Shown piece by piece: positions 7,344 to 48,323 of a DNA stretch of 64,000 nucleotides. The stretch is from the NCBI GenBank assembly GCA_026397505.1, contig JAPLUR010000125.1, forward strand, positions 1 through 64,000. The letters run 5' to 3'. Made by a program: the position numbers and the translations under genes. The notes below the pieces were generated by a model. It had not been told where the DNA came from. It was given only the letters and a program-made list of their open reading frames with translations, and did not search any database. Numbering within the stretch: position 1 is the stretch's first letter; the number at the start of each line of letters is the position of its first letter. The stretch comes from Candidatus Zixiibacteriota bacterium (GTDB lineage: Bacteria > Zixibacteria > MSB-5A5 > GN15 > PGXB01).

Positions 7344-8411
7344 GTGATAGCTCTCAATCCTAAGGTCTATATTATAGTTCTGAACTATGGCCGTTGGAAT
7401 GACACTATCGAGTGCCTGGAAAGTCTTCTGCGGCTGAATCATGATAACTATGAGATTATTCTGATTGATAATGCTTCCCCGGACAACTCGATAGAGAAGT
7501 TCCGCCTCTGGGCTATGGGGGGAGTGAATATCTGGAGAGACAACCGAAATAGGCTCAGGCAAATGAGCTTCCCTCCTTGTCCTAAACCAATTCGATTGAT
7601 TGAATATAACCGCGCCGAAGCAGAATCGGGCGGCAACCAGGTATTGACAAGAAACTCTGCCGGCAGACAAATTGTCTTGATTCACTCCGGCGCCAATCTG
7701 GGGTATGCGGGCGGCAATAATATCGGATTGCGCTACGCCTTGAAGAAAAATGACTTCAAATATATCTGGCTGTTAAATAATGACACCGTTGTGGAGCCGT
7801 CGGCGCTGAACCACATGGTTTCTCGCTTGGGGGCCCGTCCAAAGTCGGGCATCTGTGGATCGACTTCGCTCTACTATCATCGCCCGGGGATAACACAGGT
7901 GCGCGGAGGCGCCACCTATAACCGGTGGCTCGCCACCAGCCGGCATATCGGGGTCTTTGAATCGGCCGCCAACGGCTTTGACTTGGATAAAATCGAGCGA
8001 AAAACTGCTTATGTCTGCGGTTCCTCCATGCTGATTTCGAAAGCGTTTCTTGCTGAGGTGGGGCTGATGAGCGAGGATTATTTCCTTTATTATGAGGAGC
8101 TCGACTGGGTCACCCGTGCCGAAGGTAAGTTTGCAATGGTTTACGCCCCGGAAAGTATTATTTATCATAAGGAGGGACGAAGTATCGGCTCCAGCTCGCG
8201 CGGTGCGATAAGAAAAAAAATGGCCGATTTCTATGGGCAGAGGAATAGAATAATCTTCACAAGGAAATTTTACCCTTTGGCTCTGCCTTTTGTTTATTTA
8301 AGTTTTCTGGTGGTTATCGCAAATAGGCTTTTTAGAAAGCAGTGGGATCGCATCCCGATGATATTCAAAATATTGCTTCATCCCAGCCGCCGGTACGATG
8401 AAAACGATTAA
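7344..8411 (+). CDS. Family 2 glycosyltransferase
   Basis: A 355-residue GT-A type glycosyltransferase of the rhamnosyltransferase-like GT2 group. It opens VYIIVLNYGRWNDTIECLES, has the nucleotide-binding ILIDNASPDNS, a LLNNDTVVEP segment containing the DxD-like acidic motif, and FLYYEELDWVTRA as the catalytic-base region. An insertion of about 50 residues after the first strand (residues 55-105) is longer than usual. The C-terminus is hydrophobic (LALPFVYLSFLVVIANRLF) and may touch the membrane. The start is GTG at 7344; the gene overlaps the Wzy-like gene by 14 bp. Confidence 0.88.
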   Translation: MIALNPKVYIIVLNYGRWNDTIECLESLLRLNHDNYEIILIDNASPDNSIEKFRLWAMGGVNIWRDNRNRLRQMSFPPCPKPIRLIEYNRAEAESGGNQVLTRNSAGRQIVLIHSGANLGYAGGNNIGLRYALKKNDFKYIWLLNNDTVVEPSALNHMVSRLGARPKSGICGSTSLYYHRPGITQVRGGATYNRWLATSRHIGVFESAANGFDLDKIERKTAYVCGSSMLISKAFLAEVGLMSEDYFLYYEELDWVTRAEGKFAMVYAPESIIYHKEGRSIGSSSRGAIRKKMADFYGQRNRIIFTRKFYPLALPFVYLSFLVVIANRLFRKQWDRIPMIFKILLHPSRRYDEND

Positions 8412-9639
8412 GGAGTTCCTTTTCTTTCTTACAATTGCCCTGATTCCTTTTCAGGACACCAGTCTCCAGAACCTGCCGATTGGTTTCCTGGGAGCGGCGC
8501 CGTCATTCATTCCCATTTCGCTGTTGCTTCTGATCATCTTTGTCGAATGGATGACTAACGGCCAAGGGCTTCAGTTAAGCCGCAGTCTAGTTTATATCGT
8601 CGGGTACATATTTATTATCACGGTCGTTTACTTGGTCCTCTTCGGCACCCGGTCGCACGGGACAAGTCTGATTTTTAAGTCGTTTAATCTCTCGATTCTG
8701 ACCGGCCTTATGGTTTTGCCGATATTTTTTCTTGATTATGATTCTCATCGCCTGCCGCAGTATATTTATGCCGCCTTCCTGATCGCCGTGGCCGGGGTCG
8801 TTTTGATCGATCTGCTTGGCTGGGAATCGCTTGGATCGGGCTCGTTCTTTCATTTTCATGAGAATCGTAATATGCGCCCGCGCGGCTTTTCGCTTGAAAG
8901 CAGCACTCTTTCGGCGACAATCATCACGCTGGGTCTTCTCTCAGCTCATTATGCCAGAACCTGGATGGCGAAAGCGATTTTTCTGCTAGGCGTCCTGCTG
9001 ATTACTTTCTATTCCGACTCTAAGGGAGGTATGATTATCATTCTTCTGACTGCCGCGATTGTTAGTCTGAGCGCGGCCGGAATGAAAACAAGATTCAAAA
9101 TTTTGTTCATCGGCATAATTATCATCGCCGCCTTTTTTTCAATAACCATGCTGGAGACAAGACTTGTTTCCGACATAGACTTGTACACCTCAACCTCGAC
9201 CCGGACAGGCCTGATGGCCACCTCAGTAGTAACCATGTTTTACAATCCTCTGGGGGTCGGCTTTTCCGGATTTCTTCCGGCCATCAACAAATATGCTCCC
9301 CTTGCGGTCGATTACTTGAGCCGGGCAGCCGGAGGCACATTCAATTTCACCGAACTGCTCTCTTACGTAGGAGCCGACAGTGATATCAACATAAGCACCA
9401 AGACTTTCTTTTTTGACAACCTTTTATATTTTGGACTTCCATTTCTGGTGATTTTTATCCTTTTTCACCGGAAGCTTCTGGTCTTTCTGAGAAAGGACAA
9501 CTCGCTTTACCTTTATGCTGCAGTCCTTTTCTCACTAGTTGCCCTGACTACCTATGTAGGCGGGGTCGGGATTTACAGTTTCGCCCTTGTCTATGGATTG
9601 GCTTTTCGCGAAGTCGGGCAGGGGAACCGGCCTGCCTAA
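8398..9639 (+). CDS. O-antigen polymerase/ligase-like membrane protein (Wzy/WaaL type)
   Basis: A 413-residue protein with about 10 predicted membrane helices (for example FIPISLLLLIIFVEWM, ILFIGIIIIAAFFSITML) and a large external loop around residues 255-345. The central RGFSLESSTLSATIITLGLL segment resembles the Wzy_C/O-antigen ligase core. Such proteins polymerise lipid-linked repeat units in the periplasm or ligate them to an acceptor. Primary sequence is poorly conserved in this class, so topology and position in the locus carry the call. It overlaps the GT2 gene by 14 bp; a 274-bp gap follows, where the cluster probably changes transcript. Confidence 0.8.
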   Translation: MKTIKEFLFFLTIALIPFQDTSLQNLPIGFLGAAPSFIPISLLLLIIFVEWMTNGQGLQLSRSLVYIVGYIFIITVVYLVLFGTRSHGTSLIFKSFNLSILTGLMVLPIFFLDYDSHRLPQYIYAAFLIAVAGVVLIDLLGWESLGSGSFFHFHENRNMRPRGFSLESSTLSATIITLGLLSAHYARTWMAKAIFLLGVLLITFYSDSKGGMIIILLTAAIVSLSAAGMKTRFKILFIGIIIIAAFFSITMLETRLVSDIDLYTSTSTRTGLMATSVVTMFYNPLGVGFSGFLPAINKYAPLAVDYLSRAAGGTFNFTELLSYVGADSDINISTKTFFFDNLLYFGLPFLVIFILFHRKLLVFLRKDNSLYLYAAVLFSLVALTTYVGGVGIYSFALVYGLAFREVGQGNRPA

Positions 9640-9913
9640 TGGCTGGATGAAATACTGCCGTATAAAATTCCCTACCTTTGAATTTCTGTCAAAACCCGGA
9701 CATGTCTTTTCTCCCCCCATTGCAAGCGCCCGGAAAAAGAAGAGGAAAGATTGGCCGCCTGAAAGGGCATAAGTTTCCGGGTTGCCGGGCCCAAGTTTTC
9801 TCTAATCCCTTGTAAATCTTAGAGATACATGCGCGCATGGTGATTGCTATATTTTTGAACAGAAATTAAAAAATAATTTTGCATGGATGCAAAACTTGAC
9901 AAGGGATTGTCGG
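9640..9913. other. Intergenic gap inside the polysaccharide locus, with palindromes
   Basis: There is no convincing ORF. The AT-rich end (9841-9880) could hold a promoter (TTGCTA at 9844, TAAAAA at 9867, 17 bp apart, weak). A 12-bp palindrome CATGCGCGCATG lies at 9828-9839, and an 18-bp palindrome at 9877-9894 is listed separately. This is the likely break between the first and second transcription units of the locus. Confidence 0.5.
9877..9894. promoter_or_regulatory. 18-bp palindrome, operator-like, before GT4 gene
   Basis: TTTTGCAT-GG-ATGCAAAA is a perfect inverted repeat with 8-bp arms and a 2-bp centre, 19 bp before the preferred ATG at 9914. The size and symmetry suit a dimeric regulator. 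Function is inferred from symmetry and position only. Confidence 0.45.
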
Positions 9914-11242
9914 ATGCCGAAGCAAATTGATTCACCCACCGCGGTCATGGAAAGACCAACAACAAAAAGCAGAACAACAAGTTACAACCGCGCTCGAAAC
10001 CGAATGGGCGGCTCAGAGGCGCGATATGGCCGGTTTTCAGGAAAGAGGAATGGGAATACCCGGCCTTTCCCGCGACACGGGACTATTCTGGTAGTGGCCC
10101 CTGATTTCCCCTTTCCGCCTGACCACGGCGGCCGTTCAGATATCTGGAATAGAATAAAAACCCTGAATAAGATTGGTCATAAAATCGACCTTGTCGCCAC
10201 GACCAAACAGGAACCCAAACCGGAACATCTTGCAGAGGTTTACCGGTATGTGCGAAGTGTGACTATAGTTAACCGTGAACGGAAGATTTCGGACCATTTC
10301 TCCTTTATCCCCTACCAGATCAAATGCCGTGATTCATTGCGGACAGTTGCATTATCCGATGAATATGACCTTGTCCTCCTGGAAAGCGAATTTGTTTATC
10401 CAATTCTGGATAATCCGGCACTGAAAGCCAGCCAGGCGGTACTGAGAATCCAGAATCACGAATCAAGTTATTTCCGGGAACTAGCCGGATCGGTTGGTTG
10501 GGGATTCGAGAAATTATATTACCTTCTGGAGTCATTCAAATTCCATTTGATTGAATCCAGGCTCTACCGCCGGGTCAGGAACATGCTCTTCATTTCCAGT
10601 AGTGAGTATGAATCACACCGGCGGAAATACCCGGAATCGAATGCTGCCATTTTGCCGGCGCCGATTGAACAGAATAAATTGAGGATGAACCACGCCGATT
10701 CCAGGACGGTGCTCTTTGTCGGATCGCTGTTCATGGCCAATAACCGGGAGGCGCTCAAATGGTATATTGAAAAAGTGCACCCGTTTCTTTCGGATATCAA
10801 GGATTATCAGTTTTTGGCCGCCGGCAACAGCCGTGAGGGAAATATCGATTGGCTTCATTCTCTGGCTCAGAGTCATGCCAATATCAAGGTCTTTGATTCA
10901 CCGGAAGATATCACCCCGTTGTACAATCAGAGTGCGGTTTTTGTCAATTCGATGCTTCATGGTGCCGGAGTTAAGATTAAGAATATCGACGCCATCCAGA
11001 ATGGGCTTCCGGTTGTCACCACCACGGTCGGCAATCAGGGTACCGGCCTGGTCAACGGAATAGACATAATGGTCGAAAATGACCCAAAGCTTTTTGCTCA
11101 GGATATCAGGGAGCTTCTCTCCAATCGTCATAGAAGGAATGAACTGGTTCGTTCGGCGCAGGAAAATTTGAGAAAAAACTACAACCATCGTCAGATTCTG
11201 GAGAGTTTCCTGTCCCCGTTAATGAAGAGGGTCCCGGCATGA
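9914..11242 (+). CDS. Family 4-type glycosyltransferase
   Basis: A 442-residue GT-B fold glycosyltransferase. The N-terminal Rossmann half starts near residue 57 with ILVVAPDFPFPPDHGGRSDI. The C-terminal half has the sugar-nucleotide region TVLFVGSLFMANNREALKWY and SMLHGAGVKIKNIDAIQNGL with conserved PVVTT, as in Glyco_trans_1_4 proteins. ATG 9914 is preferred over 9887 because AAGGGA lies 7 nt before it. The first ~55 residues are basic and Ser/Thr-rich, an unusual extension without a visible domain; the true start could be at an internal Met. Overlaps the next gene by 4 bp (ATGA). Confidence 0.83.
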   Translation: MPKQIDSPTAVMERPTTKSRTTSYNRARNRMGGSEARYGRFSGKRNGNTRPFPRHGTILVVAPDFPFPPDHGGRSDIWNRIKTLNKIGHKIDLVATTKQEPKPEHLAEVYRYVRSVTIVNRERKISDHFSFIPYQIKCRDSLRTVALSDEYDLVLLESEFVYPILDNPALKASQAVLRIQNHESSYFRELAGSVGWGFEKLYYLLESFKFHLIESRLYRRVRNMLFISSSEYESHRRKYPESNAAILPAPIEQNKLRMNHADSRTVLFVGSLFMANNREALKWYIEKVHPFLSDIKDYQFLAAGNSREGNIDWLHSLAQSHANIKVFDSPEDITPLYNQSAVFVNSMLHGAGVKIKNIDAIQNGLPVVTTTVGNQGTGLVNGIDIMVENDPKLFAQDIRELLSNRHRRNELVRSAQENLRKNYNHRQILESFLSPLMKRVPA

Positions 11243-19781: not shown

Positions 19782-19880
19782 CCAAAACCTCCAATAAGTA
19801 TGTATAAATTTACACACACAAGATAATACTGTTAATCACATTATGAAACCACAACACTCTCGGTGTCAACAAAAAATATT

Positions 19881-20242
19881 TGGAGGTGGGGGGAATCGAA
19901 CCCCCGTCCGAAAAAGGCGCCAGACCGTCCTCTACGTGCGTAGCCGCTCTCTATTTCTCACTTCCCTGCCTGCCGAGCGGCAGGCCAGCAGAGAAGCCAG
20001 CCCTTGTTTTTAAGTCCGGCTTAAGGGCGTCACCAGACCGAGCCTTCCTGTCCGACGCTCCGACCCGGCCCGGAAAGGCAGCAGACCGGCGGAACGGGTC
20101 CCTAGGAGTTAAACTCGACTAGGCGGCCATGGCGTAGTTGTATTCGCCATTTATTGTGGTTACCGGATGTTTAACGAGCAATCCGGAGTCCCTCGGCACG
20201 CCGACAATCCCACACCGATCCCGTCGAAACCAGTTCACCCCC
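19881..20242 (-). ncRNA. ssrA: Transfer-messenger RNA (tmRNA)
   Basis: The minus strand starts GGGGGTGAACTGGTTTCGAC, the conserved tmRNA 5' end, and finishes with GGACGGGGGTTCGATTCC and CCCCACCTCCA, a T-arm and acceptor strand. The acceptor stem pairs over 7 bp with one G-U. CCA is not encoded. The tag reading frame ends N-G-E-Y-N-Y-A-M-A-A then TAG (20119-20151), the expected alanine-rich degron; the resume codon lies a few codons upstream but its exact place is uncertain. About 362 nt. A perfect small hairpin (CCTGCC-GAGC-GGCAGG) lies in the 3' half. It rescues stalled ribosomes with SmpB. Confidence 0.96.
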
Positions 20243-36804: not shown

Positions 36805-39800
36805 TTGTGGCAAGCCATTACCGGAAAACAATGCCGCCAGGTAAGGACTGTGGGTAGCAAACCATACTCGAAAATATATGCCTTAGAGAACTTGGTCTCG
36901 GAAAATTCGCTCTGTCAGTCCTGGATAGGCACCAAACGGACCACAGGCGAGAGGCATTTCCTTAAGATTCCCTCAAAGGGCGGGGCGCTGGATCAGGACA
37001 GGAAAATTTCGATTTTGATTGAGTCATTTGCCTGTCAGCAGGAGCTCAAGACCTTACGGGTTCTCAGAGCCACCGGGCGGCATGCGGAAAATGGGACACT
37101 TTTCATTGAGTATCCTTATCTTGACCAGACTCAGTGGCATTCTCTGACACCGCATCATTTTTGGGGCCGGTTTCCCACAATCCTTATCCAGAGCGCACTG
37201 ATTGTTGACTATTTGCACCTGTTCGGTTTGGTTCATGGCGATTTAAAATTTGAGAATTATCAGGTTAATCTGGCCGGGGCTGAGCCCAGGGTGATCCTAT
37301 CCGATCTGGATTTCCTCACCCAATCGTATTCCGACCCCCATTCTCGTATTTTCGGTACCCCGGAGCATATCGCCCCCGAGATCATGGAGAATGAAATCAT
37401 CCTGCCTCAATCAGACAATTTTTCGTTTGGGGTATCTCTGCGGAAATATCTCGAGACGGACGCTATCCCTTCCCGGCGGGGTGAAGAGGTTCCTGATTTC
37501 CCGATCGAAAAACTGGCTAAACTGGCCGCCGGGCTGACCAGGCCGGATCCGTCTCAGAGACCCCGCGGTTTGCTGGAAGCCCTTCTCCAGTATGAAATTA
37601 TTGACACCTCACAATTCAGAAGCGCACTCAGGAATCTGCTGGCGATGCAATTGATAACCAGATTCCGTACGGAACGGACTGGTTTGATTAAAGGTGAAAG
37701 CACTTTTCAAGGATTTCTGTCGGAACGGAACAGGCTCTTTGGTCTCTGCGATGAGTTAGTGGCTGATTTCGCGCAGGCTTATAAGTCCCGGAGATTGTCG
37801 GCTCTGCACCTTTTCCTGTCTCTTATCCGTGAGGCGGAGATCAATAAATACGGTGATTACTGGCAACTGGATATTTCCGACGACTTGCTGGAAAAGACTT
37901 TTATCGCTCTGGAGGAGATATCAACAGATGTATCAGGCGTTTTATGGAGTGTCGCGCTTACGAGCCAGGCCGATTTTGAGAAAGGCATTTCGAAGACGCT
38001 GAAATTGAGAAGAGATGGTCACTTTATGAGGGCTTTGCTTCTTCTCAAGCATTTGAAAAAGGGGCTCGCATCATTGCCCGAAGAAGCGGCAAAATCGGTT
38101 GGCAAAAGACTCCTTCGCGAATTGGGCAGTCTAGCTGCCGGTCTTGGCCGCACGGCTGAGGCGATCGAGTATTATGAGCAGGTTTTGCCTATCTCTAACA
38201 TTTCGTCGCCGGATGACCTGAGCTTGCTGATCGAGCTCAATTATCAATATATGCTGACAGGCAGGTATGATGAATCCGAAGCGCTACTTGACAGAGGTCT
38301 GGTTTCCGCCAAGTCACTGGACGACCAAAAATCAGAATTCTCCATACTACGCAATAGAGCCTGGATAATGTATGCCAGAGGGAATCTGGAGTCGGCAGAA
38401 ACAACGCTTAAGGAACTGTTGGGTCGGGCTGACGCATGCGGTCAAAAGGTTGAGGTTGGCAAGATTAATGTCGTATTGGGAATAATCAATTGGAGACGGG
38501 GAGAGTTGATTGCCGCCGAGAAGAATTTTCTAGTTGCCCTCGAATTATTTAAAGAAGAAAAGCGGATTTCGGATGCCATTCTGCCTCTGACTAACCTATC
38601 ACTCCTTTACTTCGAGTTGGCGGAATATAATAAGGCCATTCGATATGGCAAGACGGCTGTCAAATATTGTCAGGATCCGTCGGATTTTTTCAAACTTCCC
38701 GGCATATACGCAAATATAATGTCGAGTCTTGGGCGATTGGCCGAATACCAGAAGGCTGAGTACTGGCTTCAGAAATACCTCAACAGTCGGCCAACGCGCT
38801 ACGACCGCGCTTTTTTCCGCGATTACTATATTTCTGTCGGTAACTTGCATAATTGGCAGGGGGACTACCGGGAAGCCAGGGATTTCTTTCTCAAAGCTCT
38901 TGAGATGTTTCCAGTGGGTGATAAGAGCCGCAATTACGGAAAGCTGTTTCAGAGTCTGGGGTTGCTGACGGCATATCGGGGCGCCTCGCTTGAATGCCGT
39001 GATTATCTGGATCAGGCTCGCAAAGAGGGCGAAGCATCGAATGACAGGGCGACATTGGCCGAGGTAGCGTTGGTCTATCATCTCAACGCTCTATATAATG
39101 AGAAAGGAGGGATCAATAAAGACACGCTTTCTCTGTTTGCGGACTTGCTCAAACATAACAACTTCTATTATGCAGCTATTTGCCTATTTCATATCATGAT
39201 TGATGGTAGTGAGGAAGTCCGAAAAGAGGCTATCATCATGGCCGAAGCGCTGTTGCCCCTGATTCGGACATCGACAACTCCCCTGTTCCACGCCGTCTCT
39301 ATACTGATCGAGGTCGAAGAACAGGGCCATGATTCTAAACATGATATTATTCCCTACTGGAAAACCGTCTACCGTATTCTGGGGAGCGGTGGTTGCAAAT
39401 ATTGGGCGCTTCTCGTCTGCGGCAAAATCGCCGACCATTATCTTAATGAATCGAAGACCAAGCTGTCGCGGAAATTTCTATTTCAGACGCAACATTTGGC
39501 CGAAGGTGTCGGCAACAGAGCATTGATAGAGAAAATAGCCGGCAGAATCAAAGCGATAACTGATGAACGGCAGGGTCAGAGCAAAATGCTGGAATCGGTT
39601 TACGGCGTATCGGAGGTTCTCAAGAATATCGGCAATTACGAGGTGGCGCTCCAGAAACTAGTACAATATGCGGTTGATGAAACGGGTGCCGAGCGAGGAG
39701 TCCTTTTGATGGGCTCGGAACAGTCATCCGAATTGCAGGTCAAGGCTTTTGTCAACTGTGATGACGAGAGCCTCAAGGATATTATTGATTTCAGCCGCAG

Positions 39801-41046
39801 TATCCCCCGGACAGTAGCCGAGGATCTCCAGCCGGTGGTTATCGATAACGCTCTGGAGGACAATCGCACCAAGAAGTATAAGAGCATTATCGCCCACAAT
39901 ATTCTCTCTGTTATCTGTGTGCCGGTGCCCATCAAGGATCGATCCATGGGCGTTTTCTATCTGGATCATCACACCATTCCGGCTCTTTTCGAACGAGAGG
40001 ATGTTACTTTTATCTACTCCATGGCCAATTTTATGTCGGTCTTACTATCGACCATACAGAATTTCCGAGTTCTCGATTATAGCCGCCGCCAACTCTCCGA
40101 AGACCTATTCCGCTCCGGCGCCAAACAACCGCTTATCACCGAAAACGAGACAATGAAAGCGCTGCTTTCGAGGTTGCCGGAAATCGCCCGCAGCAACGTC
40201 AGTGTCCTGATTTACGGCGAAAGTGGAACCGGCAAGGAAATACTCTGCCAGATGATTCACGACCTCAGCAGCCGAGCTAAAGGTCCATTAATCAAACTTA
40301 ACTGCGCCGCCATTTCGGCTACACTTATTGAAGGAGAGCTATTTGGAGTAGCCAGAAAGGTCGCCACCGGTGTGGATGAGCGAGAGGGTAAATTTTCTGC
40401 CGCCGATGGCAACACGCTGTTTCTCGACGAGATCGGCGATATGCCGCTGGAGATTCAAAGCAAGATACTACGGGTGCTGGAGTATCAGCAGTTTGAAAAA
40501 GTAGGCAGCAATCGAATTATTACTGTCGATGTCCGCTTAATTTATGCTACTAATAAAGATCTAAAAGAGATGGTTCGTCAGGGGAAATTCCGCGAAGACC
40601 TTTATTATCGTATCAACAGGATTACCATTGACATTCCTCCGCTCCGGGAACGACCCGATGATATTTCTCGATTGCTTGATTATTTCAGCCAGTTTTTTTC
40701 TCCTGACCTATCGCGCCGACCTGTATTCTCCGGCGAGGCTATAAACGCTCTTATGGCTTATCGATGGCCCGGGAATGTTCGGGAATTGAGAAATATGACA
40801 GAGAAGTATTGCATCCTTAATCCAGGCAAAAGGATCGATCTGACAGACCTTCCCAATGAAATCGGCGGCTGCCTTCTGACCGATGGCAGAAATGATGAAG
40901 CCTTTCAGGCCCTGGAGAAAGCCGGAATCCGGGAACTTCTTATTAAGAACAACTGGAACATGTCAAAGGTTGGTCGGAGTCTTAAGATGCCGCTCTCCAC
41001 ATTAATCCGAAAAATCCGAAAATACGGCATAACAAAGAATCGCTGA
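36805..41046 (+). CDS. Kinase-like/TPR/GAF/AAA+ transcriptional regulator of the sigma-54 activator family
   Basis: A 1413-residue protein in four parts. Residues 20-275 are kinase-like, with HGDLKFEN and a DLD in place of DFG; the glycine loop is not recognisable, so activity is doubtful. Residues 400-890 are TPRs. Residues 930-1090 are a GAF domain ([13 protein letters not shown]). Residues 1110-1340 are an AAA+ domain with Walker A GESGTGKE and Walker [12 protein letters not shown] Fis-type HTH ends it ([20 protein letters not shown]). The GAFTGA loop that contacts sigma-54 reads KVATGV, so sigma-54 dependence is uncertain. The start is TTG 36805; GTG 36849 is possible. It should couple a cellular signal to transcription. 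Confidence 0.88.
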
Positions 41047-44414: not shown

Positions 44415-45734
44415 ATGAAGCCATCTCGATATAATGTTTTTATTGACCTGGAGGGTGGGCGAAAGCTGGCTTTTAACGGGCTCAGCGCCACTCTTTCGGA
44501 AATCTATCCCGAAAATGCCTCTCTGGTTGCCGGACTGATGGAAAATTCATCTCAGCCTGCGACCGAAGATGAGAAGGAAATTTATCAGGCTCTGGTCGAT
44601 GGCAGATACCTTGTCGAAGACGAATTGGATGAACTTGAATTCCTGAAAGTACGAAACAGACGCTGCCGTTTTGATAAGAATGCTTTCTTCTTGACCATTG
44701 CACCTACCCTGGGGTGCAATTTCAGCTGTGAATACTGCTTTGAAAACCAGCGGCCGGGGCGGATGAATGCAGAGACCGAGCAGGCGATCGTGAAATTCAG
44801 CGAAAAATATATGAAAAAGGCCGAATTTGCCGGGGTCATATGGTTCGGCGGGGAGCCGACCCTCTGTGTCCCCACAATTGAAAGGCTTCAGAACAGTTTA
44901 AGAGAACTGGCTGAAAAATGCGGCTCCCGTTTTGATCCCGCTTCGATTATCACCAACGGATTCTTGCTTGACGGCAAATTGGCGGAACGGCTGAAGGGGT
45001 TTGGCGTCGAATCGGCCCAGGTTACGATAGACGGCCCCCGGGAGATACATGACAGAAGGCGAAAATTACATAACGGCTCCGGCACATATGACCGGATTCT
45101 GTCCAATCTGACTGAATCCTCGGAGATCTTGAAAATCATTGTTCGTGTCAATGTTGACCGGCAGAATGTTGATAATGCTTTTGCGGTTGTCGAGGAACTG
45201 GATAAAAAGGGGATTCTTCCCAGGGTCAACATGCATTTCGCGCAGGTTCATGATTCGGAGGGAGTCTGCGCCGATATTGCGAAACATTGCCTGGCGACGG
45301 AGGAATTTTCGGTGCATCTGACCGGGCTTTACCGCAGGCTGATTGACAGCGGTTTTTATCGGATCGAGTACCCCTCGCTTACTCTGGGGGGACATTGCGG
45401 CGCGGATACGGACGGCTCCTTTGTCTTTACACCTTCGGGAGATGTTTTCAAATGCTGGGAGGATATTGCCATTCCCGAATGGTCGGTCGGCAATGTTTTT
45501 TCCGAAGAGCTTACGCCTCGTCAGGAAGCCAATCTTCTCAAGTATCTGGGTTGGGATCCGTTCGAAAGAGAAGAGTGTGTTTCGTGCTCAATTCTGCCCA
45601 TCTGCATGGGCGGCTGCCCGCGTCAGTCACTGGAGAAAGGGCGCAGAGTGGGTAGTTGCACTTCATGGAAATATAACCTCAAAGAAATGCTGACATTGAG
45701 ATATGAATGCGATCTCAGAAAGGAGGTGATATAG
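44415..45734 (+). CDS. Radical SAM/SPASM peptide-maturase-like protein
   Basis: A 439-residue radical SAM enzyme. Residues 1-85 (SRYNVFIDLEGGRKLAFNGL) resemble the N-terminal peptide-recognition region of RiPP maturases. The radical SAM core follows with CNFSCEYC (CxxxCxxC that binds the catalytic 4Fe-4S cluster, near residue 98) and WFGGEPTL. The C-terminal SPASM domain has GHCGADTDG, FKCWEDI, CVSCSILPICMGGCP and a last Cys in GSCTSW, enough for two auxiliary clusters. The gene ends TAG directly before the ATG of a 30-residue Cys-rich peptide. Such a pair typically installs thioether or C-C links; the chemistry here is unknown. Confidence 0.88.
   Translation: MKPSRYNVFIDLEGGRKLAFNGLSATLSEIYPENASLVAGLMENSSQPATEDEKEIYQALVDGRYLVEDELDELEFLKVRNRRCRFDKNAFFLTIAPTLGCNFSCEYCFENQRPGRMNAETEQAIVKFSEKYMKKAEFAGVIWFGGEPTLCVPTIERLQNSLRELAEKCGSRFDPASIITNGFLLDGKLAERLKGFGVESAQVTIDGPREIHDRRRKLHNGSGTYDRILSNLTESSEILKIIVRVNVDRQNVDNAFAVVEELDKKGILPRVNMHFAQVHDSEGVCADIAKHCLATEEFSVHLTGLYRRLIDSGFYRIEYPSLTLGGHCGADTDGSFVFTPSGDVFKCWEDIAIPEWSVGNVFSEELTPRQEANLLKYLGWDPFEREECVSCSILPICMGGCPRQSLEKGRRVGSCTSWKYNLKEMLTLRYECDLRKEVI
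45721..45729 (+). promoter_or_regulatory. Near-perfect ribosome binding site for the peptide gene
   Basis: AGGAGGTGA lies inside the last codons of the radical SAM gene, 5 nt before ATG 45735. The complementarity to the 16S 3' end is far better than that of neighbouring genes and decides that the 30-codon frame is translated. Confidence 0.85.
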
Positions 45735-45827
45735 ATGAAGACTATTCAGAAGGGTTGCGATGCCCGCAGACCATGCTGGTGCTACCAGAAACTCTGGATC
45801 ATCTACCCGGTCTGCTCAATCGATTGA
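45735..45827 (+). CDS. Cys/aromatic-rich 30-residue peptide, candidate RiPP precursor
   Basis: The peptide starts MKTIQKGCDARRPCWC and ends YQKLWIIYPVCSID. It has four Cys (8, 14, 16, 27), two Trp and two Tyr in 30 residues, with a short basic N-terminus that could act as leader. The gene starts at the base after the stop of the radical SAM/SPASM gene and has an outstanding ribosome binding site, the standard arrangement for a modified-peptide precursor next to its maturase. No match to a named precursor family (SCIFF, geopeptide, CXXX-repeat) is evident by eye. No protease or transporter gene is seen nearby. Confidence 0.7.
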   Translation: MKTIQKGCDARRPCWCYQKLWIIYPVCSID

Positions 45828-45849
45828 CAGTTGACTTTGGGGAGAAAGG

Positions 45850-46144
45850 GTGTTGAAGTTCAAATTACGTGGCTGTCCCCCCCCTGAGGGAAAATCGAAT
45901 TTATCAGACCGCCTGGACCGTGTGCCGGAAGGCTGAAAAAGAATATCAGACAGCATTTAATTTGACACAATCCCCGTCTTCAAAGCCGCCGTTATCGAAA
46001 TGTGACCTGGATTCGGGAAGAGGCAGGGTTGTGGTCGGGCGGCATGTCCGGATGGAGTTGATGAATAGCTTCAGACAAAGCTATTCCGGCCGACGCAACC
46101 TCACTCTCTATTACGGCGCCATGAGAATAAACCGGTTGTCGTAA
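45850..46144 (+). pseudogene. Possible small ORF split at a C8 tract
   Basis: GTG 45850 with GGGGAG 5 nt upstream opens MLKFKLRGC and then meets a run of eight C (45877-45884); as written it stops after 28 residues. Removing one C would join it to a frame that continues to 46144 (ending YYGAMRINRLS), about 97 residues in all with three Cys. No family is recognised. It may be a second small product of the locus, a phase-variable gene, a sequence error or chance. Confidence 0.3.
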
Positions 46145-46168
46145 TGAGAATCTTTTGATCACGGATGC

Positions 46169-46206
46169 AGAAAGCGCGTTGATTTCGCTGGAAGTCCGCG
46201 CTTTCT
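46169..46206. promoter_or_regulatory. Perfect 10-bp-stem hairpin before second radical SAM gene
   Basis: AGAAAGCGCG (46169-46178) and CGCGCTTTCT (46197-46206) are fully complementary around an 18-nt loop. It lies 26 bp before the next start. It may stabilise the upstream peptide mRNA or attenuate read-through into the downstream enzyme, which would give more peptide than enzyme (inference). Confidence 0.5.
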
Positions 46207-46232
46207 CATAGCCGACGCGAACTTGAAAGAGA

Positions 46233-47276
46233 ATGACTGCTATAATGAGAATCGAAAAACCGGAGAGAATTGGCTGGGAAATAACCCGGTTCTGCAATCT
46301 GACCTGTCCGCATTGCTACAGCGCCGCCACCAAGAAACCACTGCGCGAGTTGAGCACCGCCGAATCTCTTAACATAATCAAATCCTTAAAAGAGATGGGA
46401 ACCGGATTTATCGGCTGGACGGGCGGAGAACCGTTGCTGCGTGGAGATCTGGAGAAGCTGATATCGTATGCCGCGGAAATGGGTATAAAATCGGCCATCA
46501 CCAGCAATGGGGTTCTTCTGGATGAGAAAAGGGCCCGAAGTCTGCAGAAAGCCGGTGTCAGGATGGTTCAGATAAGTATCGATGGTTCGACGCCCGAATG
46601 GAACAACCGAATAAGGCGGGCCACAACCGAGGAGTTCTACAAAGCCCTTGAGGCGGTACGTATCTGCAGGAGGCTGGGGTACAGCGTGACGATGGCCATG
46701 CTGATCGGCGAGGAGAATCTTGATGATGCTCCCGAATATATAAAACTGGCGACACACGAAGGAGTTGACTGTGTTCGATTCTGCGGATTTGTTCCTTTTG
46801 GACGGGGAAAAAGTCAGAATCACCGGCTTGGATTTACGGAACGGAAGGGGGACCTGAAAAAGTTCGTTTCCAAGCATTATGGCAGTGAGAAACCGATGAT
46901 TGCTTTTGATCCGGCTTTCGGCCCGCCGCCGCCGTATTACTATTTCCATGAATGTATGGCCGGCAAGAGCATGTTCTATCTTACCTGCACCGGGGATGTT
47001 TTCCCCTGTACTTCTCTTTTAGGAAAAGAGAATCTTATCGGCAATGTTCGAAAACGGTCGCTAGCCGATATTTGGAACGATCCCAAGATGACGGCCGTTT
47101 CCGATTTAAGGCCGCAAGATATTCACGGCGTCTGCCGCGATTGCCGGCATTTGAAGCATTGCCATGGCGCCTGCCGCGGGATAACCAAATGCCACACCGG
47201 CGATCTTTATGCTTCATTTCCGCTTTGTTTGTACCGGGTAAAGAATAAATCCAAAGCGGTGAAGCACCCCAAATAG
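46233..47276 (+). CDS. Second radical SAM/SPASM protein
   Basis: A 347-residue radical SAM protein. The core motif is CNLTCPHC near residue 22, with WTGGEPLLRGD and SIDGSTPEW following. The C-terminal SPASM region has CMAGKSMFYLTCTGDVFPC, then CRDCRHLKHCHGACRG, then CHTGD and a final Cys in FPLCLY. It resembles the NirJ/AhbD/GeoRSP-like branch, which includes haem-modifying and peptide-modifying enzymes. It shares the locus with the Cys-rich peptide and first maturase, so a second modification of the same peptide is plausible but not proven. ATG 46233 or 46245. Confidence 0.82.
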   Translation: MTAIMRIEKPERIGWEITRFCNLTCPHCYSAATKKPLRELSTAESLNIIKSLKEMGTGFIGWTGGEPLLRGDLEKLISYAAEMGIKSAITSNGVLLDEKRARSLQKAGVRMVQISIDGSTPEWNNRIRRATTEEFYKALEAVRICRRLGYSVTMAMLIGEENLDDAPEYIKLATHEGVDCVRFCGFVPFGRGKSQNHRLGFTERKGDLKKFVSKHYGSEKPMIAFDPAFGPPPPYYYFHECMAGKSMFYLTCTGDVFPCTSLLGKENLIGNVRKRSLADIWNDPKMTAVSDLRPQDIHGVCRDCRHLKHCHGACRGITKCHTGDLYASFPLCLYRVKNKSKAVKHPK

Positions 47277-47581: not shown

Positions 47582-48013
47582 ATGAAAGAAAAAGTCGACA
47601 TAATTCTGGCGCCCGTTTTTCGGGCCATGGCTGACAGCACGAGGCTTAAGATCCTCCTGATGCTTGAGGCCAAACCGCGTACAGTGGGGGAGATTGTCTC
47701 ATTCTTCAACCTCTCCCAACCGACGATAACCCGTCACCTGCAGGCGCTGACCGCCGTCGGGCTGGTGAAACGAAGCCGCAAAGGGCAGCATGTCCGATAT
47801 GAACTGAATGCCGAGAATCTGCGCATGGTTTGTGTGGACCTGGCCGATTCATTCCCTTGCTGCAGCATGGTGGTGATCCCCCGCAGTGGGAATGCAGTAT
47901 GCGATGTTCCGGTGAAAAGCAAAAAAAACAGGAAAGGGGTTGGTTCGTACGATACAATTGCCCCGGTGAGAAATGTTAATATTGGAACACGAAAGAAAGG
48001 AGGCCGGCGATGA
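47582..48013 (+). CDS. ArsR-family winged-helix transcriptional regulator
   Basis: A 143-residue repressor. Its winged helix (residues 8-85) is typical: FRAMADSTRLKILLMLEAKP, then FFNLSQPTITRHLQALTAVG, then VKRSRKGQHVRYEL. The C-terminal extension has Cys (CVDLADSFPCCSMVV, AVCDV) that could bind metal or thiol signals; the classical ELCVCDL motif of ArsR is missing. It probably binds the palindrome at its own promoter. The stop overlaps the next small ORF (ATGA). Whether it also regulates the radical SAM locus just upstream is unknown. Confidence 0.87.
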   Translation: MKEKVDIILAPVFRAMADSTRLKILLMLEAKPRTVGEIVSFFNLSQPTITRHLQALTAVGLVKRSRKGQHVRYELNAENLRMVCVDLADSFPCCSMVVIPRSGNAVCDVPVKSKKNRKGVGSYDTIAPVRNVNIGTRKKGGRR

Positions 48014-48084
48014 GACGGTTCTTGGTTCCGCGCGTTGCTCGTTGTTGCAGCGGCGCTAAACGGTTGTCCCGGGTAGGACACTAA
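48010..48084 (+). CDS. 24-residue Arg/Cys peptide ORF coupled to ArsR gene
   Basis: ATG 48010 overlaps the ArsR stop (ATGA) and has AAAGGAGG 7 nt upstream. The product, MRRFLVPRVARCCSGAKRLS plus four residues, is basic with a Cys pair. The excellent ribosome binding site and the terminator 27 bp after its stop argue that it is translated. No family is recognised. It may be chance, a leader-type peptide or a small metal/thiol-related product. Confidence 0.4.
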   Translation: MRRFLVPRVARCCSGAKRLSRVGH

Positions 48085-48110
48085 AAGGCCCATCCGACTA
48101 GAGGTTAACC

Positions 48111-48140
48111 GGGGTCCCGATGAGGGGCCCCAATTTTTTT
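48111..48140 (+). terminator. Rho-independent terminator
   Basis: GGGGTCCC (48111-48118), loop GATGA, GGGGCCCC (48124-48131), then AA and seven T. An 8-bp stem with one G-U. It closes the ArsR/peptide transcript. Confidence 0.85.
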
Positions 48141-48323
48141 CAGTCTGGACGGGCCGAGAGTAATATATCAGATTTCCGGATAATTGACAATCAAATTGGA
48201 TGTCGCCTATCTGCAGAATGACGCCGCGGAGTGCAGGGGCTGGGTTTAAAAGCAAAATGTAAGCAGAACCGAAAAAGGCGATCAATCTCTAATTAATCAG
48301 GATTGCGCCGGTAATGAATACAA

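Follow-up and report, generated by a model that had tools for sequence, protein, structure and literature searches.

A contig of Candidatus Zixiibacteriota (JAPLUR010000125.1, assembly GCA_026397505.1), of which 64,000 nt were analysed (hereafter the window, to which coordinates refer), carries two genes for radical S-adenosylmethionine (SAM)/SPASM enzymes and, between them, a gene for a peptide of 30 amino acids (aa). We consider it likely that these genes form a cassette for a ribosomally synthesized and post-translationally modified peptide (RiPP), in which the first enzyme (enzyme 1) modifies the core of a leader-bound precursor and the second (enzyme 2) either has that peptide as its substrate too or is a partner that enzyme 1 cannot do without. 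What the cassette makes is very probably a cross-linked peptide unlike those described so far. Direct observation extends to the genes themselves, to their conservation as a unit, to the coding status of the peptide and to how enzyme 1 is predicted to fold.

Organization of the locus

On the + strand, enzyme 1 (439 aa, 44415..45734) is followed by the peptide MKTIQKGCDARRPCWCYQKLWIIYPVCSID (45735..45827) and by enzyme 2 (347 aa, 46233..47276). The first two genes abut without any spacing (TAG|ATG), and the peptide contains four Cys, two Trp and two Tyr. This layout had been described in an earlier reading made from the letters of the window and their open reading frames (ORFs), hereafter the sequence-only reading; it is confirmed by the ORF coordinates and by Pfam Radical_SAM matches (67.9 bits for enzyme 1 and 111.1 bits for enzyme 2). 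The Shine-Dalgarno sequence of the peptide gene, AGGAGGTGA (45721..45729, + strand), lies within the final codons of enzyme 1, where it also encodes the recurring C-terminal Lys-Glu-Val (K-E-V) of this protein. As this arrangement is found again at other loci (L038, L039, L040, L044 and L045), translation of the peptide is probably coupled to that of enzyme 1.

The precursor peptide is a genuine gene

The phylum-wide searches, centred on the window's own genome (G000), covered 132 genomes. Homologous peptides follow the relatives of enzyme 1 in other Zixibacteria: MKIIQKSKETRKPCFCYLQLWIIYPVW and MRIVQKSKETRKPCPCYKIMFYILPPW in G006 and G013 (the first with a TTG start in G013), MKFLEKPQDSVKKPCPCLNRLFLILPPW in G010, MRIIETARQAQSKPCPCYKMLFLILPPW in G012, MKFIEKPKTAQAKPCPCYNRLFYILPPNPVK in G017, MKLIENPKGITPRKPCPCYRRLFLILPPGPK in G033, MKFIEKPQMKKTDRPCPCYKMFFPIICSAD in G018, and others. 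The closest relative of the window peptide is the first peptide of G006, with 63% identity. G006 and G013 represent separate species within a genus. Their versions of either peptide differ by six synonymous and no non-synonymous codons (12 and 0 in total), while the DNA between and after both peptides is just 56-65% identical.

A peptide profile that includes 12 of these homologues was also specific. All 16 matches with E<1e-9 in the 132 genomes sit in an enzyme 1 locus; five or six weaker plausible matches are the orphan copies of G024 and G027, with scattered chance matches from E~0.004 onwards. Since the profile was built with 12 of the peptides, independent support comes only from the additional finds (G063, extra G010 copies and the G024/G027 copies). 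When the window's own peptide was removed from the profile, 45735-45824 still came out on top of the window's 1864 stop-to-stop frames (E=6e-9, runner-up 0.06), and it did so again when its closest relatives were also removed (E=0.0017, runner-up 0.13). The ORF spans just 30 codons, but the conserved frame, the exclusively synonymous changes and the specificity of the profile rule out a chance frame next to two enzymes of an unrelated operon. Thus the conserved peptide-maturase pairs that the sequence-only reading proposed to look for do exist, and small ORFs missing beside enzyme 1 relatives or drifting out of frame, which it had named as grounds for its own refutation, were not what we found. 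In G010, one precursor copy (G010:C5:36952-37032) next to intact precursors is broken by an in-frame TAA and has apparently decayed.

The family, with lengths of 27-34 residues, has the consensus MKFIEKP-x5-KPCPCYxxLFxILPPW. In 12 aligned peptides, a leader-like M[KR][FILTY][IVL][EQV] precedes a Pro-Cys pair (C-x-C, or C-x(2-3)-C in some) and then [LMF][FWY]-x-I-[LY]-P. The window peptide accordingly shows a leader-like MKTIQK... and a core of about RRPCWCYQKLWIIYPVCSID. The conserved pattern takes in just two of its four Cys, C14 and C16. The other two are missing from nearly all relatives: C8, which lies in the leader-like part, and C27, for which G018, with a Cys near its end, is the exception. 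The core proposed by the sequence-only reading, CDARRPCWC...PVC, therefore holds for the CxC pair and not for its outer Cys, the conserved features being the P-C pair and an aromatic/Ile-Pro tail. That reading knew no matching precursor family, and indeed no NCBIfam or Pfam family is matched by the peptide. Neither the window peptide nor any of four close relatives matched TIGR04333, the Clo7bot precursor model (cut-off 31 bits), even at E=10; control peptides of L063 and L067 scored 36.7 and 52.2 bits.

Precursors are diverse around related enzymes. A sub-clade (G000 contig 42, G037, G062) carries another precursor type upstream of the enzyme, e.g. MKIITMPGIEPILKPYLIICGVKGPLRIICGHY. The window's genome itself contains five enzyme 1 homologues, which are separate systems on contigs 10, 42, 69, 108 and 125 (L053, L050, L165, L166 and the window), where a locus can hold as many as five precursors and the precursor types differ (RPCWCY..YPVC, YIIC, MIYLVDP..YGVPI, MNWLVEP and MDFLIQP).

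Enzyme 1 is closest to Clo7bot-type maturases

Enzyme 1 possesses the CxxxCxxC motif (C101/C105/C108) and a seven-Cys SPASM set (C328, C347, C388, C391, C397, C401, C415). The former and six SPASM Cys are invariant in its alignment, the seventh being nearly so. In the AlphaFold2 model (mean predicted local distance difference test, pLDDT, 93.2), a predicted N-terminal domain of about residues 1-86 places three strands and three helices before the radical SAM barrel, as expected for a RiPP recognition element (RRE), and we regard this modelled domain as RRE-like. The best structural match is CteB (5wgg/5why), a thioether-forming ranthipeptide maturase; anSME, TigE and SuiB follow, and ChlB is also among the matches. 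CteB, the SCIFF maturase, shares with the predicted fold the succession of N-terminal RRE, radical SAM and SPASM domains (TM-score about 0.72), but its identity to enzyme 1 is 17%, and conserved Cys in the cassette precursor number two, against six in forty-five residues for SCIFF.

By sequence, the top NCBIfam models are TIGR04334 (Clo7bot maturase; 335.7 bits, residues 2-433) and TIGR04463 (RiPP maturase; 320.1 bits, full length). Both scores lie under the respective cut-offs of 600 (56% of it) and 525 bits, which are passed by controls from Clostridia (L063, 711.3 bits; L067, 767.3 bits) and Thiothrix (L077, 586.7 bits), so that enzyme 1 belongs to neither family as modelled. Nor is it a SCIFF maturase (TIGR03974, 87.8 bits for a cut-off of 425, the peptide having four Cys in 30 residues instead of six in forty-five) or a geopeptide maturase (TIGR04280, 170.2 bits for a cut-off of 400). 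The sequence-only reading had likened the locus to SCIFF, ranthipeptide and geopeptide types: a radical-SAM RiPP locus it is, yet the SCIFF and geopeptide models failed and the closest kind is the Clo7bot-type maturase family. At the gene level, the locus joins a radical SAM/SPASM enzyme and an RRE, the latter from the predicted fold, with a Cys-containing precursor, as ranthipeptide loci do, and a conserved gene-encoded precursor stands next to a modifying enzyme, as in RiPP loci in general.

Two enzyme 1 homologues deserve mention. Locus L043 (G018) carries tandem copies (7963-9276 and 9296-10612), preceded by the only precursor detected and followed by one enzyme 2. In L161 (G004:C68, 4091-4996) the gene contains stops and the contig ends shortly after, suggesting a decayed gene or an assembly error.

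Enzyme 2 belongs to another SPASM subfamily

Enzyme 2 also carries an intact CxxxCxxC motif (C21/C25/C28) and a full seven-Cys SPASM set (C241, C259, C301, C304, C310, C314, C332), without an RRE-like extension. Its sequence and fold neighbours are enzymes such as MftC, AhbD and PqqE: the top models are AhbD (170.9 bits), NirJ2 (161.4), mycofactocin (154.8) and PqqE (138.5), with StsB also present, and the closest structures to its model are PqqE first, then SkfB and SuiB. It can be assigned neither as the heme b synthase AhbD (cut-off 500) nor as a mycofactocin maturase (cut-off 265), and its NirJ2 and PqqE scores are also under the cut-offs of those models, which for NirJ2 is likewise 500 bits. 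Unlike in MftC and PqqE systems, a separate RRE protein (MftB, PqqD) was not noted nearby.

Three genes are conserved as a unit

Enzyme 1 falls in a clade of 20 rows (support 100/100), one of which, L060, is labelled as an Acidobacteria metagenome-assembled genome. An enzyme 2 orthologue (46-62% identity, search scores of 370-480 bits) adjoins every member whose contig continues. The sister rows, from Acidobacteria and bacteria without name, have no second enzyme. Within 5 kb of enzyme 1 relatives in Firmicutes, Proteobacteria, Thermus, Bacteroidota and other phyla no enzyme 2 orthologue was detected, the best score being 53 bits (L068, opposite strand), and none was found beside the Clo7bot/TIGR04463-type maturases sampled in other phyla, including L063, L067 and L077.

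In 18 compared neighbourhoods, no gene family other than those of the two enzymes recurs widely around the cassette. As flanking genes are otherwise unrelated, the unit consists of exactly these three parts, a portable and self-contained cassette. The peptide-maturase pair from which the sequence-only reading proposed a radical-SAM RiPP locus is thus conserved in related genomes; that enzyme 2 belongs to one conserved cassette with it goes beyond what was recognised there.

A separate Zixibacteria clade, with precursors such as MIYLIDPTAASKDVCLRLCGTYCGIKPCYGVPPEEI, holds at the same position a second SPASM enzyme of another subfamily (28-30% identity to enzyme 2; top models TIGR03913, TIGR04103 and TIGR04133). 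On the tree the label 'second enzyme' requires two changes, most simply read as two recruitments; the two-enzyme layout probably arose twice.

In the window, a gap of 405 nt (45828..46232) separates the peptide from enzyme 2. Searching the genome with the peptide profile revealed no second intact precursor there, and the gap has no similarity elsewhere in the genome and no repeats; other clade members hold a second precursor at this position or have a far shorter gap. Where relatives have this second precursor, a small frame at 45850-45936, (V)LKFKLRGCPPPEGK... behind GGGAGAAAGG, may be a decayed precursor or a product of chance. Further on, a hairpin without T-run, AGAAAGCGCG...CGCGCTTTCT (about 46165-46210), folds somewhat better than shuffled sequences (z=-2.33) and has no Rfam match.

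Proposed mechanism and alternatives

What we infer concerns leader binding, the type of bond, the division of labour and the function of the product, which may serve as a signal, a metallophore, a cofactor or an antibacterial. For families of RRE-SPASM enzymes, leader binding and core cross-linking are established; thioethers link Cys to a non-alpha carbon in ranthipeptides and to an alpha carbon in sactipeptides. Here, the peptide would be made coupled to enzyme 1, whose RRE-like domain would bind the MK[FI]I[EQ]K leader. The SPASM auxiliary clusters of enzyme 1 would probably bind the core Cys pair (P-C-x-C), and the enzyme would probably form ranthipeptide-like thioether cross-links with 2 Da lost per link, the same loss per bond as for the Cys-Asp thioethers of PapB (PMC9413430). 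A thioether at the Cys pair is the outcome towards which we lean for enzyme 1. Enzyme 2, a SPASM enzyme of PqqE/AhbD/mycofactocin type without its own leader-binding domain, would target the same peptide, most likely at the aromatic/Ile-Pro tail (LWIIYP; ILPPW in relatives), or serve as obligate partner. The tail is put forward because both two-enzyme Zixibacteria lineages have an aromatic/Pro tail, whereas the Clo7bot peptides of L063 and L067 have none; that enzyme 2 adds a second modification there falls a little short of an even chance. More tentative still is the idea that a single core of some 15 residues receives chemically distinct modifications from the two SPASM enzymes, a P-C-x-C thioether and another radical modification at the tail, giving a polycyclic scaffold unlike known radical-SAM RiPPs, with this two-enzyme version of a Clo7bot-type system built twice in Zixibacteria.

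As for that second modification, MftA ends in a conserved C-terminal Val-Tyr, unlike the cassette peptides. With precursors that end variously in W, K, R, D, I or F, we do not favour a C-terminal decarboxylation of the mycofactocin kind.

The two enzymes could instead form an obligate complex, as modelled for TrnC/TrnD of thuricin CD (PMC12093266), where one catalyses, both are required and one kind of thioether results. Their strict co-occurrence in the clade agrees with this analogy, but they come from different subfamilies and both retain all their cluster motifs, and we hold such a complex to be unlikely. We give about the same low weight to the possibility that the links made by enzyme 1 are streptide- or cyclophane-like (C-C or Cys-aromatic) and not Cys thioethers. 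The aromatics Y17 and W21 are conserved about as well as the second Cys, and SuiB and ChlB appear among the structural matches; on the other hand, P-C is the most conserved core feature, and the closest families (Clo7bot, TIGR04463) and best structure (CteB) all pair with Cys-rich peptides. Still less probable, enzyme 1 would act alone on the peptide and enzyme 2 would be a mere neighbour with another substrate, for instance catalysing a decarboxylation of the heme or cofactor type, like that of AhbD or mycofactocin MftC. The heme-pathway models at the top of its list and the 405 nt that separate it from the peptide speak for this; yet its scores are far under the AhbD and NirJ2 cut-offs, it is kept at every uninterrupted locus of the clade despite differing flanks, and the second Zixibacteria lineage has a different SPASM enzyme in its place.

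Some observations count against the cassette reading as we propose it. The alignment of 12 peptides has a single invariant Cys, for which no cross-link partner is obvious from sequence. The enzyme 2 model is weak in its last third (pLDDT <50 at 311-347). No transporter, protease, exporter or regulator is conserved among the 18 neighbourhoods, so that the absence of a visible transporter or protease reported by the sequence-only reading extends to relatives. Finally, orphan peptides (e.g. MRFIEKRQDNKLNNCPFLCKKMYYILPPW) have no maturase beside them in G024 and G027, which belong to one genus (L198, G024:C73, 7815-7904 and about 8266-8355; L197, G027:C53, 1282-1371 and 1708-1800). They come after a heterodisulfide-reductase-like iron-sulfur gene, and in G027 an enzyme 2 gene lies at a contig end. 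Some precursors may therefore be modified in trans, or the link may be masked by fragmented assemblies.

Comparison with known systems

The cassette resembles Clo7bot systems (TIGR04334/TIGR04333) by the full-length similarity of enzyme 1 and by short precursors, often several per locus, with MK[YF]I-x-KP-type leaders. Clo7bot precursors, however, are Cys-rich without an ILPPW-like tail, and no second SPASM enzyme stands beside L063 and L067. Likewise, TIGR04463 maturases are similar to enzyme 1 over the full length, but the Thiothrix locus L077 has no second enzyme. Judged from these sequenced loci, the second enzyme is the new feature. Two radical SAM enzymes per small Cys peptide are known from thuricin CD (TrnC/TrnD) and ruminococcin C (RumMC1/RumMC2) (PMC12093266, PMC8188230), a likeness at the level of description; in contrast to them, the cassette enzymes are of different subfamilies and no transporter is present.

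We found no paper on Clo7bot, TIGR04334, TIGR04463 or Zixibacteria RiPPs, in a search outside of which subscription papers lay, so that an earlier description is possible. Both the precursor family and the two-enzyme layout are without existing family model, in a poorly known uncultured phylum. With second SPASM enzymes recruited in parallel, from different subfamilies, next to related enzymes 1, how two radical enzymes share one peptide becomes directly testable by comparison; and with peptides of 27-34 residues in a three-part unit, reconstitution in E. coli is feasible at once.

Neighbouring genes

The cassette is preceded by a DinB-like gene and followed by an ArsR-type regulator, neither of which is found again at other loci. 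The stretch 47582-48150 holds this regulator and then a short Arg/Cys frame (MRRFLVPRVARCCSG...) preceded by GGAGG, with a strong terminator-like stem at 48111-48131. Farther upstream, 36805-41046 encodes a 1413-aa regulator with kinase-like, TPR, GAF and sigma-54 activator domains, and a tmRNA gene (187 bits) lies at 19880-20242 on the minus strand.
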